Part shown: positions 9,381 to 14,276 of the stretch, piece by piece | Numbering within the stretch: position 1 is the stretch's first letter | How the letters are laid out: each line of letters begins with the position of its first letter | The notes under the pieces: generated by a model | The model's input: only the letters and a program-made list of their open reading frames with translations | Told to the model about the DNA's origin: nothing | Databases searched by the model: none | Program-made: the position numbers and the translations under genes | DNA from: Martelella radicis | GTDB taxonomy: Bacteria > Pseudomonadota > Alphaproteobacteria > Rhizobiales > Rhizobiaceae | Reading direction: 5' to 3' | DNA: 64,000 nucleotides | NCBI RefSeq assembly: GCF_014196625.1 | Contig: NZ_JACIDZ010000003.1 | Location: 248,001-312,000 of the forward strand

Positions 9381-9396
9381 GTTGCCGAGCGGCAAC
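9381..9396. promoter_or_regulatory. Inverted repeat between two divergent efflux genes
   Basis: GTTGCC-GAGC-GGCAAC, a perfect 6-bp palindrome with a 4-nt centre, lies between the FUSC exporter and the leader of the ABC exporter. It could be a repressor operator serving both genes or a small hairpin. No regulator gene is adjacent, so the assignment is tentative. Confidence 0.35.
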
Positions 9397-9498
9397 AATC
9401 CTCTCGCAAATGCCGTTTTCAACGGTGCCGTCTGTAGCCAGCTTCAGGGGAAGGCGCTATAAGGGCGGCGTTTCTCTAACCGGCGAAAGGAGCATGGC

Positions 9499-9555
9499 AT
9501 GATGAACATCACTGGCTTTGTAGTGCTCCGCGTTCCACCGCGCCGCACCGTGTGA
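9499..9555 (+). CDS. Candidate leader peptide (18 aa) upstream of ABC exporter
   Basis: A short frame of 18 codons plus TGA encoding MMNITGFVVLRVPPRRTV. An AGGAG ribosome site lies 6 nt before the ATG, stronger than that of the downstream transporter. The peptide ends in an Arg/Pro-rich run (RVPPRR), the kind of sequence that slows or stalls ribosomes. Its last codons form one arm of a hairpin that competes with a second hairpin downstream. Coding potential is inferred from the ribosome site and architecture only; no known leader peptide family was recognised. Confidence 0.5.
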   Translation: MMNITGFVVLRVPPRRTV

Positions 9556-9653
9556 CCTTTCACACGACCTTCCTCTTTCCTATTTAATCATTCGAATTAA
9601 CGCGTCCGTGTGAAAACGGCCGCTGTTCCATTCCCGGGTCCGTTCGCGCGGAC
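9549..9653 (+). promoter_or_regulatory. Possible attenuator with mutually exclusive hairpins
   Basis: CGTGTGA (9549-9555, end of the leader frame) can pair with TCACACG (9560-9566). The longer TTTCACACG (9558-9566) can instead pair with CGTGTGAAA (9607-9615), 9 bp. Further on GTCCG (9638-9642) pairs with CGGAC (9649-9653), followed by a T-rich stretch, and another GTCCG at 9604-9608 could compete. The complementarities are seen directly. A ribosome-controlled switch acting on the ABC exporter start at 9704 is inference. Confidence 0.45.
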
Positions 9654-9703
9654 ATATCGTGCTCTTTTCTGCAGGAGCGTCCGGGAGGCATTGGAGTCCG
9701 ATC

Positions 9704-11560
9704 ATGTTTCGCTGGTTTGAAACCCGTCTCAATCCCTATCCCGAGGCAGAGCCCACCGCGCCGCCCTCTGGCCTGATCCCGTTTCTGTGGCACTATTCGA
9801 AGCCTGCCGCCCCCTATCTGGCACTGATGGCTTTCATTGCCGCGCTGGTTGCCTTCGGAGAGGTTTACCTGTTCCGCTTCCTCGGCGATATCGTCGACTG
9901 GCTGTCGACGGCCGACCGCGAGACCTTCCTTGCGGATGAAGGCTGGCGGCTCGCCTTCATGGGCGCGCTGGTCCTGGTGTTGCTGCCTGGGCTGACGATC
10001 TTCTCCTCGCTGCTGATCCATCAGGTGCTCCTGGGCAATCTGCCGATGATCAGCCGCTGGCAGATGCATCGTTATGTGCTGCGCCATTCGATGAACTTTT
10101 TTGCCAACGAGTTTGCGGGTCGGGTCTCGCAGAAGGTCATGCAGACCTCGCTGGCGATCCGCGAAACGGTGATGAAGGCGCTCGACATGTTCGTCTACGT
10201 CATCACCTATTTCGTTTCGATGATCTTCATCGTGGCTGCTGCCGACAGGCGTCTCGTCATTCCACTCTTGGTCTGGATCGTCGTCTATGCCGTCCTGCTC
10301 TGGTACTTCATTCCGCGTCTGCGCAAGATCTCGGCCGATCAAGCCGATGCGCGCTCGCTGATGACGGGCCGGGTGGTCGACAGCTACACCAATATCGCCA
10401 CCGTCAAGCTGTTCTCGCATGCCGGCCGGGAGGAGCTTTTCGCGCGAGAAGGCATGGATGGCTTCCTGGACACCGTCTATCGCCAGATGCGGCGCGTGAC
10501 GCAGTTCCAGGCGCTGGTCTACATAAACAATGCGGTGGCGCTCTTTGCAGTCAGCGCTCTGGCGATCCGTTTCTGGCTCGAGAGCAGCATCACCGTCGGC
10601 GCCATCGCGCTGACGCTCGGCCTTGTCATGCGTATCGGCGGCATGTCGCAGTGGATCATGTGGGAGGTCACAGGCCTCTTCGAAAACATCGGCACGGTCT
10701 ATGACGGCATGTCGATGATGGCGAAGAAGCACGAACTGGTTGATGCCGACGGTGCAAAGCCGCTCGCCGTCAACAAGGGCGAGATCGTCTATGACGACAT
10801 CTCCTTCCACTACGGCAAGGAAGGCGGCGTGATCTCCGGCCTGTCGCTCACCATCAAGCCGGGCGAGAAGGTCGGCCTTGTCGGACGCTCCGGCGCCGGC
10901 AAGACGACGATGATGAACCTCCTGCTGCGCTTCTTCGATCTGGAGGGCGGGAAGATCACCATCGATGGCCAGGATGTCTCGAAGGTATCGCAGGACAGCC
11001 TGCGTTCCATGATCGGCGTGGTGACGCAGGATACCTCCCTGCTGCACCGCTCCATCCGGGACAATATCGCCTACAGCCGCCCGGGCGCCAGCGACGAGGA
11101 GGTGATTGCCGCCGCCAAGCGCGCGAACGCCTGGGACTTTGTCGAAGGGCTTTCCGACATGCAGGGCCGCACCGGCCTTGACGCCCATGTCGGCGAGCGC
11201 GGGGTGAAGCTTTCCGGCGGCCAGCGCCAGCGTATTGCGATCGCCCGCGTTTTCCTGAAGGACGCGCCGATCCTGGTGCTGGACGAGGCGACCTCGGCGC
11301 TTGATTCCGAGGTCGAGGCGGCCATCCAGGAAAGCCTGTTCGGGCTGATGGAGGGCAAGACCGTGATCGCGATCGCCCACCGGCTGTCGACGCTGACGGA
11401 AATGGACCGGCTCGTCGTTCTCGACAAGGGCGAGATCATAGAGACCGGCACGCATCAGGCACTCGTCGAGGCCGGCGGCATCTATGCCGACCTCTGGAAA
11501 CGCCAGTCCGGCGGCTTCCTCGCCGAAGACGACACGGTGGCCGGAGAGGCTGCGGAGTGA
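9704..11560 (+). CDS. ABC exporter, fused permease-ATPase (half transporter 1)
   Basis: A 618-aa type IV (ABCB/MsbA-like) half exporter. Six membrane helices occupy roughly residues 30-310. The nucleotide-binding domain has Walker A GRSGAGKTT, Q-loop VTQD, signature [13 protein letters not shown], Walker [13 protein letters not shown] and the H-loop IAIAHRLS, so it should hydrolyse ATP. The start gives MFRWFETRLNPYPE, with GGAG 8 nt upstream; 15 earlier in-frame codons are less plausible. A 200-nt leader with a candidate short peptide precedes it. A close paralog follows at 12408; the two may form homodimers or a heterodimer. Exported substrate is unknown: drug, lipid or peptide are all possible for this family. 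Confidence 0.92.
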   Translation: MFRWFETRLNPYPEAEPTAPPSGLIPFLWHYSKPAAPYLALMAFIAALVAFGEVYLFRFLGDIVDWLSTADRETFLADEGWRLAFMGALVLVLLPGLTIFSSLLIHQVLLGNLPMISRWQMHRYVLRHSMNFFANEFAGRVSQKVMQTSLAIRETVMKALDMFVYVITYFVSMIFIVAAADRRLVIPLLVWIVVYAVLLWYFIPRLRKISADQADARSLMTGRVVDSYTNIATVKLFSHAGREELFAREGMDGFLDTVYRQMRRVTQFQALVYINNAVALFAVSALAIRFWLESSITVGAIALTLGLVMRIGGMSQWIMWEVTGLFENIGTVYDGMSMMAKKHELVDADGAKPLAVNKGEIVYDDISFHYGKEGGVISGLSLTIKPGEKVGLVGRSGAGKTTMMNLLLRFFDLEGGKITIDGQDVSKVSQDSLRSMIGVVTQDTSLLHRSIRDNIAYSRPGASDEEVIAAAKRANAWDFVEGLSDMQGRTGLDAHVGERGVKLSGGQRQRIAIARVFLKDAPILVLDEATSALDSEVEAAIQESLFGLMEGKTVIAIAHRLSTLTEMDRLVVLDKGEIIETGTHQALVEAGGIYADLWKRQSGGFLAEDDTVAGEAAE

Positions 11561-11677
11561 CAAAGGACGGGCCTGCCAGAGATGGTGGGCCCGTTTCGGT
11601 TATGGGGCAGGTTTTGTGACGCTTTCACTTGCCCGAGACCGCAGGGCGATGCTGGATGACGCCAGCGCTTTCCATGT

Positions 11678-11711
11678 GGCCCTGGACCCCGGCTCAAGGC
11701 CGGGGTGACGG
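11678..11711 (+). repeat. REP-like palindromic repeat, copy 1
   Basis: A 34-bp unit starting GGCCCTGGACCCCGGCTCAA with internal dyad CCCGGC-TCAAG-GCCGGG. One of four copies around the GIY-YIG gene; the similarity extends about 13 nt further 5' (GCGCTTTCCAT). Copies 1 and 2 face each other. Confidence 0.85.
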
Positions 11712-11771
11712 AGGATCGGGAGAGAAAGCAACCAGACAGGCACGCTCTCTTTTATCTCAGCCTCTCCTCTC

Positions 11772-11805
11772 CCGTCATCCCGGCCTTGAGCCGGGATCCA
11801 GGGCC
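11772..11805 (-). repeat. REP-like palindromic repeat, copy 2 (inverted)
   Basis: The same 34-bp unit in the opposite direction, reading CCGTCATCCCGGCCTTGAGC on the plus strand. It pairs with copy 1 as an inverted repeat with about 60 nt between them, so the transcript could form a large stem. Confidence 0.85.
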
Positions 11806-11827
11806 ACGCGGGGAAACCTCGCCGTGA

Positions 11828-12112
11828 TCACAACAGGTGGTGGGAAATGTCACGCCATTGGGGATTGCTCGTTTCGATCAGATGCAGCTTCCATGCCCGT
11901 GGCCACTTCTTGATTGTTTTCTCGCGGTTGATTGCATCGGTCACGAGGTCATGCTCCTCGAACCAGACCAACGTTTTGACACCGTAGCGCTGGGTGTAGC
12001 CGGGCGTCAGGCCATGCTGATGCTCATAGAGGCGGCGCGCGAGATCGCTGGTTACGCCGGTGTAAAGCGTACCGTTCGGTTTCGAGGCGAGGATGTAGAC
12101 ATAGCCTTTCAT
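11828..12112 (-). CDS. GIY-YIG domain endonuclease-like protein
   Basis: A 94-aa single-domain GIY-YIG protein of the UvrC-nuclease superfamily. Seen: the YVYILASKPNGTLYTGVT core (GIY-YIG equivalent: VYI plus YTG), the catalytic Arg in DLARRLYEHQHG, the LVWFE strand and the catalytic Glu in AINREKTIKKW. The frame is open 99 codons further upstream, but that part runs through a repeat; the ATG giving MKGYVYIL is the family start. It lies between two inverted pairs of palindromic repeats and between two paralogous ABC exporter genes, suggesting insertion. The cellular role of these small proteins is not established. Confidence 0.9.
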   Translation of the reverse strand: MKGYVYILASKPNGTLYTGVTSDLARRLYEHQHGLTPGYTQRYGVKTLVWFEEHDLVTDAINREKTIKKWPRAWKLHLIETSNPQWRDISHHLL

Positions 12113-12160
12113 GCGATGAGGTTCTGATGAAGAGCCCAAATAGGCAAGCGCTTTCCATTT

Positions 12161-12194
12161 GGCCCTGGATCCCGGCTCAAGGCCGGGATGACGG
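12161..12194 (+). repeat. REP-like palindromic repeat, copy 3
   Basis: A 34-bp unit starting GGCCCTGGATCCCGGCTCAA, differing from copy 1 at only two positions, with the shared 5' extension GCGCTTTCCAT. It sits 49 nt beyond the GIY-YIG start codon. Confidence 0.85.
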
Positions 12195-12249
12195 ATACGG
12201 TTGGTCGGTGAGTAAACGGATAACGCCCCTGTTCCTCTAACACCCTCTC

Positions 12250-12283
12250 CCGTCACCCCGGCCTTGAGCCGGGGTCCAGGGCC
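12250..12283 (-). repeat. REP-like palindromic repeat, copy 4 (inverted)
   Basis: The inverted partner of copy 3, reading CCGTCACCCCGGCCTTGAGC on the plus strand, with about 55 nt between them. Copies 3/4 mirror the arrangement of copies 1/2 on the other side of the GIY-YIG gene. Confidence 0.85.
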
Positions 12284-12407
12284 ATGCGGGAAGCCTTTGT
12301 TGCTGTTGAAACAGTCCCTGCGGGGTGGAAAGGCGACCCGGCTGTCCACTCTCTTTTGATCAAACGATAATTGGCGCGCCTGCCGAATCCCTGTATCTCT
12401 TTTCGCC

Positions 12408-14276
12408 ATGATATTTCAGCGCATTGCAGACCTGTTCGAGCGGTGGATCGATCCGCTGGCCGACCATACGCCTGAGCGGCCGCCGGAGAAGCTTGTCCCG
12501 TTTCTCTGGTATTTCCTGCGTCAGGCGAAGTGGCCCTTCTTCGCCATGCTTGTCGTCGGCGGGGGCGTGGCGATCATGGAATCGGCCTCCTTCTGGTTCA
12601 TGGGCGTGCTGATCGACATTCTCGATGGAACGCCGCGTGAGGCGGGCTGGTCGGGGCTGATGGCCGAATACGGCTGGGTGCTGATCGGCATGGCCTTTGC
12701 CATGGTGGTCGTCCGCGTCGGGCTGACCACGCTGCAGATGCTGATCGAGGAACAAACGATCGTTCCCGGCTTCAACAATCTGGTGCGCTGGCAGTCCTAC
12801 CGCTATGTGGCGCGGCAATCGCTCGATTTCTTCCAGAACGATTTCGCCGGACGGATCGTCACCAAGGTGACGGCGGCTGGCCAATCGATCGGCGACCTGA
12901 TGTCGTCGCTGCTGCAGGTCGTCTGGTTCATGGCGATCTACGCGATCTCGACCATGGCGCTGGTGGCTGCCCTCGACTGGCGGCTGGCGGCGCTGATCGC
13001 GCTCTGGATCGCGATCTTCGCCATTCTGGCGCGCTTCTTCGTGCCGCGCATCCGCGAAAACGCCCGCGAGCTGGCTGAAGCCAATTCGATGATGTCCGGG
13101 CGGATGGTCGATTCTTTCTCGAACATCCTGACCCTCAAGCTCTTCGGCAGCGACGAGGGCAATGACGGCTATATGCGCGGCGGCTTCGAGCGGCTGATCG
13201 CTCGCGTTCAGGCCTTTACCCGGCTGATCACCGGGGTCAGGGCCTCGCTCAGCCTGTTGTCGGGCGTGATGATCACGGCGATTGCGGCGCTCTCGGTGCA
13301 TCTCTGGTTTTCCAGCGATATCACCTCGGGCGATGTCGCCTTCACGCTCGGCCTGTCGCTTCGCCTTTCCATGCTGCTCGGCCGGCTGATGATGCAGCTG
13401 AACGGCATCATGCGTGCGATCGGCACTATCCAGAATTCCGCCGAACTGATCTCGCAGCCAATCGGGCTGGTCGACAAGCCGGACGCCGTGCCGCTCGTTC
13501 TGCGCAATCCGGCAATCCGCTTCGACAATGTCAGCTTCGGCTATGACGGCGGCAAGGGCGTGATCCGCGACTTTTCGCTTGACGTGCGCGCCGGCGAGAA
13601 GGTCGGTATTGTCGGGCGCTCCGGGGCTGGAAAGTCGACGCTCGTCAACCTGCTGCTGCGTTTCTATGATGTCGACAGCGGCCGTATCCTGATCGACGGC
13701 CAGAATGTTGCCGATGTGACGCAGGAAAGCCTGCGGGCGGGGATCGGCATGGTGACCCAGGATACCGGCCTGCTGCATCGCCCGATCCGCGACAATATCC
13801 GTTTCGGCAATGAAAATGCCGGCGACGACATGTTGTGGGAGGCGGTCGAGCGGGCGGAGGCTGACGGTTTCATCGGCGATCTGGCCGATCTGCGCGGGCG
13901 CAAGGGGCTTGATGCCTATGTCGGCGAGCGCGGGGTGAAGCTTTCCGGCGGCCAGCGCCAGCGTATTGCCATTTCGCGGGTGATGCTGAAGGACGCGCCG
14001 ATCCTCGTTCTCGACGAGGCGACCTCGGCGCTCGATTCGGAGGTCGAGGCCGCGATCCAGGCCAATCTGATGAAACTGATGGAGGGCAAGACCGTGCTCG
14101 CCATCGCCCACCGCCTGTCGACGATCGCGGCGCTTGACCGGCTGATCGTCATGGACAAGGGCCGGATCGTCGAGGAAGGCACCCATGATGCACTGATCGA
14201 GAAGGGCGGGCTTTACGCTTCTCTCTGGGCCCGGCAGTCCGGCGGTTTCCTGCCCGAACTCGACGACGGGGAATAG
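12408..14276 (+). CDS. ABC exporter, fused permease-ATPase (half transporter 2)
   Basis: A 622-aa type IV ABC half exporter, paralog of the one at 9704. The membrane domain spans about residues 25-320. The ATPase domain has Walker A GRSGAGKST, Q-loop [17 protein letters not shown], Walker [13 protein letters not shown] and the switch His in LAIAHRLS, so all catalytic motifs are intact. The ATG at 12408 gives MIFQRIADLFERW; no clear ribosome site precedes it. A 52-nt stretch around the signature motif is identical in DNA to the paralog, more than the surrounding divergence predicts. The substrate is unknown; pairing with the first half exporter is possible. Confidence 0.92.
   Translation: MIFQRIADLFERWIDPLADHTPERPPEKLVPFLWYFLRQAKWPFFAMLVVGGGVAIMESASFWFMGVLIDILDGTPREAGWSGLMAEYGWVLIGMAFAMVVVRVGLTTLQMLIEEQTIVPGFNNLVRWQSYRYVARQSLDFFQNDFAGRIVTKVTAAGQSIGDLMSSLLQVVWFMAIYAISTMALVAALDWRLAALIALWIAIFAILARFFVPRIRENARELAEANSMMSGRMVDSFSNILTLKLFGSDEGNDGYMRGGFERLIARVQAFTRLITGVRASLSLLSGVMITAIAALSVHLWFSSDITSGDVAFTLGLSLRLSMLLGRLMMQLNGIMRAIGTIQNSAELISQPIGLVDKPDAVPLVLRNPAIRFDNVSFGYDGGKGVIRDFSLDVRAGEKVGIVGRSGAGKSTLVNLLLRFYDVDSGRILIDGQNVADVTQESLRAGIGMVTQDTGLLHRPIRDNIRFGNENAGDDMLWEAVERAEADGFIGDLADLRGRKGLDAYVGERGVKLSGGQRQRIAISRVMLKDAPILVLDEATSALDSEVEAAIQANLMKLMEGKTVLAIAHRLSTIAALDRLIVMDKGRIVEEGTHDALIEKGGLYASLWARQSGGFLPELDDGE

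Follow-up and report, generated by a model that had tools for sequence, protein, structure and literature searches.

A short leader upstream of an ABC exporter in Martelella radicis is, on balance, likely to be a conserved cis-acting attenuator, one that controls transcription of the exporter by sensing translation. It lies in the 64,000-nt window analyzed here (NCBI RefSeq assembly GCF_014196625.1, contig NZ_JACIDZ010000003.1, positions 248,001 to 312,000; genome size, 4.99 Mb) and spans ~235 nt from a putative transcript start, flanked by a divergent FUSC-family gene and two ABC half-transporter genes. The leader carries a small upstream open reading frame (uORF) whose Shine-Dalgarno sequence can pair with the uORF's own codons (helix P2), a helix enclosing the uORF (P1), and a C-rich tract beyond the stop codon. 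It has no Rfam family and probably represents a variant of the attenuator recently reported for Sinorhizobium meliloti duf1127_1. The elements on which the argument rests are as follows.

9481..9485, + strand: 5′ strand of P1, CGGCG, pairing with 9541–9545
9486..9492, + strand: Shine-Dalgarno sequence of the uORF, AAAGGAG, identified from its sequence and from the uORF counts across loci
9489..9495, + strand: 5′ strand of P2, GGAGCAU, which takes in the Shine-Dalgarno sequence and forms 7 bp with 9523–9529
9499..9555, + strand: uORF, MMNITGFVVLRVPPRRTV and stop, 18 codons, starting at 9499 or 9502
9523..9529, + strand: 3′ strand of P2, the anti-Shine-Dalgarno within the uORF, GUGCUCC, pairing with 9489–9495
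9541..9545, + strand: 3′ strand of P1, CGCCG, pairing with 9481–9485
9556..9600, + strand: pyrimidine-rich, rut-like tract after the stop (14 C, 2 G), the putative second attenuation element
9704..11560, + strand: ABC exporter half-transporter 1 (PF00005 and PF00664 matches), the gene proposed to be regulated

The leader uORF is conserved ahead of the exporter

An exporter-protein search gave 572 candidates, of which the best 80 loci, mostly labelled Rhizobiaceae, were examined; eleven genomes with weaker matches lie outside this sample. A script that looked 150–330 nt upstream of the exporter for an ATG frame of 12–31 codons preceded by a Shine-Dalgarno (5 bases or longer) found one in 67 of the 80 loci, against 4.3 ± 1.9 in two-base-block shuffles and 4 on the reverse strand. 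This bears out the first-pass annotation, which had reported the AGGAG site and the 18-codon frame from the window alone. By eye, the uORF is present in 75 of the 80 loci. Translation may start at the second ATG (9502), since the close relative L018 lacks the first.

For leader statistics we assembled 96 leaders: 24 of the 30 loci L014–L043 and 10 of the 40 loci L044–L083, with the uORF chosen by eye (4 of those 10 were removed, being near an edge), plus 66 of the 80 loci L084–L163. Left out of the last set were 6 duplicates of earlier loci, 5 loci without a uORF (L142, L152, L153, L159 and L160) and 3 script misses (L098, L102 and L109). Fifty-nine of the 96 leaders are non-redundant, and in 52 of these the exporter is at most 270 nt away. 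The uORF has 17–22 codons in 93 of the 96. In more distant genera (10 of 40 loci examined) it lies 310–583 nt upstream of the exporter. There, a variable small ORF of 52–133 codons separates the two (L044, L046, L047, L050, L051, L057, L059–L061 and L063), and by eye, in most of these ten loci, letters resembling TGACGGCGG past the leader stop have possible pairing partners farther downstream that resemble CCGCCGGA.

A covariance model (R1) built from 49 leaders matched 21 of 61 genomes at E 0.1 and, in a search of 151 family genomes at E 0.01, matched 34; absences carry little weight because the sensitivity of the model is low. All 16 matches with E ≤ 0.001 in the 61-genome search lie directly upstream of exporter sites located by protein search, including one in a genome absent from the model (G027). 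Rfam gave no match at its gathering score in the window and ten relatives, none up to E 3 for the S. meliloti leader, and three for the window leader at E 1.2–6.4, far under the cut-off. Among open-licence papers, supplements excluded, we found no account of this exporter leader; one possible mention is a sentence on sORF3/sORF55 in PMC12218461.

The Shine-Dalgarno sequence pairs with codons 8–10 of its own uORF

P2, which had been overlooked in the first-pass annotation together with P1, masks the Shine-Dalgarno of the uORF with the uORF's own codons 8–10. Helices of at least 6 bp occur in 49 of the 59 non-redundant leaders, compared with 18.2 expected. In Martelella, a genus that also includes Martelella limonii and M. 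mediterranea, P2 has 6–8 bp in all 13 leaders, with the pairing reaching only the last Shine-Dalgarno bases in L025 and L026. In a column test on 49 sequences, the covariation score was matched by 0 of 500 shuffles, but the number of pairs changed on both sides by 224 of 500. P1 joins the 5′ end of the transcript to the end of the uORF or to bases immediately past its stop, and true partners outperformed swapped partners across the 59 leaders (Z −5.7 for energy and 6.9 for helix). P1 may strengthen the Shine-Dalgarno mask.

These pairings bear on the proposal of the first-pass annotation that the RVPPRR end of the peptide stalls the ribosome in response to a drug or metabolite. The motif L-R-V-P-P-R-R is retained in several Martelella despite synonymous changes, L-R-V-P-P-R is commoner within the genus, and there is weak purifying selection (pN/pS 0.68, binomial p 0.025). 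However, the peptide is entirely different in other genera, where no conserved arrest motif was found, and substitutions fall evenly across codon positions (46, 56 and 58). The conserved R-L-P codons act as the anti-Shine-Dalgarno, and this pairing accounts for their conservation; leaders without R-L-P also pair their Shine-Dalgarno (36 of 43, against 13.2 expected). Nascent-peptide arrest is therefore improbable here. Still less credible, and in our judgment very unlikely, is that the uORF yields a functional small protein or that the leader is chiefly a separate small RNA. The peptide ends in Ala in 58 of the 96 leaders though the remainder varies, and duf1127_1 also gives a uORF-containing small RNA (PMC12218461); against this stand the extreme sequence divergence, the constant location ahead of one exporter, and the lack of a convincing second copy in the M. 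radicis genome (model R1, best E 0.067).

Pairing between the anti-Shine-Dalgarno and the Shine-Dalgarno of the exporter was also considered and rejected (Z −0.8 and 0.0).

The leader shares its anatomy with the duf1127_1 attenuator

According to Kothe et al. 2025 (PMC12218461), duf1127_1 of S. meliloti is preceded by a 29-codon uORF with C-rich early codons to which its own ribosome-binding site can pair, and by a 45-nt element past the uORF stop (38% C, 18% G). Under normal translation both elements are exposed, which leads to an early transcription stop, presumably by Rho, whereas tetracycline, chloramphenicol or ribosome shortage hides the first element and allows expression. Regulation is attributed there to the RNA rather than the peptide because synonymous changes act.

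The S. meliloti 4H41 genome contains a DUF1127 gene preceded by a leader uORF of 29 codons (L238), which agrees with that of duf1127_1 at C11 and A15 as well as at the C-rich codons 3, 5, 9 and 10. Its Shine-Dalgarno pairs GGAGGCGUA/UGCGCCUCU at +23, the same place as in the exporter leaders; its post-stop tract has 40% C and 20% G; and homologs L234 and L235 pair likewise, with 7 and 9 bp. The exporter leader thus shares with duf1127_1 a short uORF with a strong Shine-Dalgarno, the pairing of the latter to C-rich codons at the same position (+23, CGCCTC), and a tract with more C than G past the stop. This C excess is seen in 56 of 59 leaders, and the window tract falls within the top 0.8% of random genomic 45-mers for C minus G, an imperfect control for leader composition. 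Unlike duf1127_1, the exporter leader would regulate an ABC exporter, its uORF mostly has 17–22 rather than 29 codons, and it contains an additional hairpin, P3. The relief by tetracycline and chloramphenicol described for duf1127_1 (PMC12218461) is, for the exporter leader, a prediction.

A possible link to drug response comes from SM2011_RS23660. PMC12218461 places it first among the large genes of an ABC-type multidrug operon, with two translated small ORFs upstream, and counts it among the 30 genes that tetracycline induces most. This gene is expected near 1.66 Mb in a genome taken for Sinorhizobium (G189), with ribosomal-protein genes as anchors and collinearity assumed; L32 is RS31025, and the number of rplB was derived from an ortholog table (PMC8632152) and from gene order. 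The exporter lies at 1.68 Mb, and a search for PF00664, which leaves aside ABC operons lacking this domain, found no other such exporter within 0.9 Mb on the contig. On this circumstantial evidence, SM2011_RS23660 is quite probably the exporter gene.

Proposed mechanism and downstream elements

Since the exporter leader has the anatomy of the duf1127_1 attenuator plus an enclosing helix, we infer that the same mechanism operates, and extend the Kothe et al. 2025 model to a second gene. Normal translation of the uORF would open P1 and P2. Both the C-rich codons and the tract past the stop would then be exposed between ribosomes, and a factor, probably Rho, would load on them and end transcription ahead of the exporter. 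Tetracycline, chloramphenicol or a scarcity of free ribosomes would slow or block initiation on the uORF; the element would then be hidden by a stuck ribosome or by the P1/P2 fold, and the exporter would be transcribed.

The downstream part of the leader contains the following further features.

9549..9566, + strand: stop-codon hairpin CGUGUGA/UCACACG, a Martelella feature
9602..9623, + strand: hairpin P3, GCGUCCG/CGGCCGC, with one mismatch in the window
9638..9662, + strand: hairpin at 9638–9653 overlapping a weak terminator-like site (9646–9662 and T-rich tail; consensus scan)

Three pairings in this region had been named in the first-pass annotation, and all are present in the window. The stop-codon pairing, CGTGTGA (9549–9555) with TCACACG (9560–9566), is partially conserved, with GTGTGA/TCACAC in 6 of 13 Martelella. 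The 9-bp alternative pairing of TTTCACACG (9558–9566) with CGTGTGAAA (9607–9615) and the third hairpin, GTCCG (9638–9642) with CGGAC (9649–9653) before a T-rich stretch near 9663, each occur in 1 of 13, the window itself; both were rejected as conserved parts, being private to this genome among the 13. The short frame and its Shine-Dalgarno are thus kept across orthologous loci, but two of the three hairpins are not kept among the 13 Martelella. What stands of the earlier attenuator proposal, and fits best, is a translated-leader attenuator before an ABC exporter, possibly antibiotic-responsive; peptide stalling is not supported.

A different use of such hairpins is refolding of the bmrB or ermC type, in which a slowed ribosome in the uORF alters the choice of downstream hairpin and acts through an intrinsic terminator or a freed ribosome-binding site of the exporter. 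We regard this as unlikely, though a more serious contender than peptide arrest. In its favor, 13 of 52 leaders have a terminator-like site between uORF and exporter, where single-base shuffles predict 6.0; the 13 include the leaders of the window and of S. meliloti. The window leader has one weak site, at 9646–9662 and followed by TCTTTTCTGC, where shuffles give 0.4 ± 0.6. The sites occur at varied positions and are not general among the leaders, but an intrinsic terminator may nonetheless be at work. The Bacillus subtilis bmrB leader of bmrCD resembles the exporter leader in placing a uORF ahead of an ABC half-transporter pair with the ribosome as sensor; however, bmrB encodes 53 residues and has an intrinsic terminator within the ORF and an antiterminator (PMC4191407), whereas the exporter uORF is shorter and terminator-like sites are confined to the minority counted above. 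The ermC leader (described in PMC4191407) likewise combines a leader peptide with alternative helices but works on the downstream ribosome-binding site, where the exporter leaders have no general masking. Masking of the exporter's Shine-Dalgarno was rejected as a general feature.

Attenuation by transcription termination as in duf1127_1 has its own parallels in Escherichia coli tnaC and Bordetella pertussis bp2923, where a leader ORF gates Rho-type termination; these need arrest near the end of the peptide (both per PMC12218461), whereas the peptide of the exporter leader is not conserved. Several observations weigh against this preferred reading. The role of Rho is only probable here and is itself presumed in PMC12218461. 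The identity of L238 with duf1127_1 is likewise inferred, since residue 17 is Val in L238 and Thr in the paper, and duf1127_1 has no clear P1. P1 has only 5 bp in the window and 3–4 bp in L015, L025 and L026; codons 3–10 of the window contain 7 C and 6 G, hardly a C excess; and folding of the leader as a whole is unremarkable (z −1.5, with 16 of 200 shuffles as good), so that the window is not the best example of the leader type. In a wider duplex test against codon shuffles, just 15.6% of the 96 leaders had at most 5 of 100 shuffles as good. The five loci without a uORF count on the same side, as does the S. meliloti exporter leader, in which no second small ORF with a Shine-Dalgarno was found, and the leader statistics take no account of phylogeny. 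Finally, the terminator-like sites slightly weaken attenuation of the duf1127_1 type and slightly strengthen refolding.

Promoter region and neighboring genes

Two further features frame the locus.

9458..9463, + strand: possible −10 element TATAAG, by eye, with similar letters in many relatives
12408..14276, + strand: ABC exporter half-transporter 2, 46% identical to half-transporter 1

From the position of the −10 element, the transcript would begin near 9470; a consensus promoter scan listed no + strand promoter at 9458..9463. Upstream lies an inverted repeat, GTTGCC-GAGC-GGCAAC (9381–9396), and a TTGC-N3-9-GCAA palindrome precedes the uORF in 22 of the 96 leaders against 1.7 expected; the repeat is perhaps the operator of a regulator. 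Just ahead of the possible −10 element, some relatives (e.g., L019 and L020) have TTGACGCTGGTCAA or CTGGTCA (the latter in 10 of 96 leaders), a candidate −35 region or operator.

For half-transporter 1, none of the 25 NCBIfam families listed, of 85, reached its cut-off. Between the two ABC genes (11640–12300), multiple CCCGGCTCAAGGCCGGGATGAC-type repeat copies in either orientation are seen by eye, and amid them, on the minus strand, lies an ORF with a GIY-YIG domain (11831–12112, PF01541). The genes beyond the half-transporters resemble petABC.

Implications

A DNA pattern for the module matched in 44 of 81 genomes, whereas the reversed-pattern control gave 4 matches in total; the matches inspected by eye were ABC leaders and one DUF1127-like leader. 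We tentatively suggest, as a possibility short of an even chance, that a single RNA module, in which the ribosome-binding site of a leader ORF is masked by codons 8–10 of that ORF, serves repeatedly in Rhizobiaceae as a general sensor of ribosome availability for unrelated stress genes, namely those for a multidrug-type ABC exporter and a DUF1127 protein. They would form a small translation-stress regulon defined by RNA architecture, without a shared peptide, ligand or protein regulator, in which the exporter branch has a second, covarying helix enclosing the whole ORF. If this is true, the attenuator reported from a single S. meliloti gene would represent widespread, conserved sensing of ribosome activity, and an efflux-type ABC exporter would be so controlled throughout a family to which legume symbionts and Agrobacterium belong. 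RNA pairing, in place of a presumed arrest peptide, would then account for short conserved leader frames, and subinhibitory ribosome inhibitors are predicted to increase exporter mRNA via the leader.
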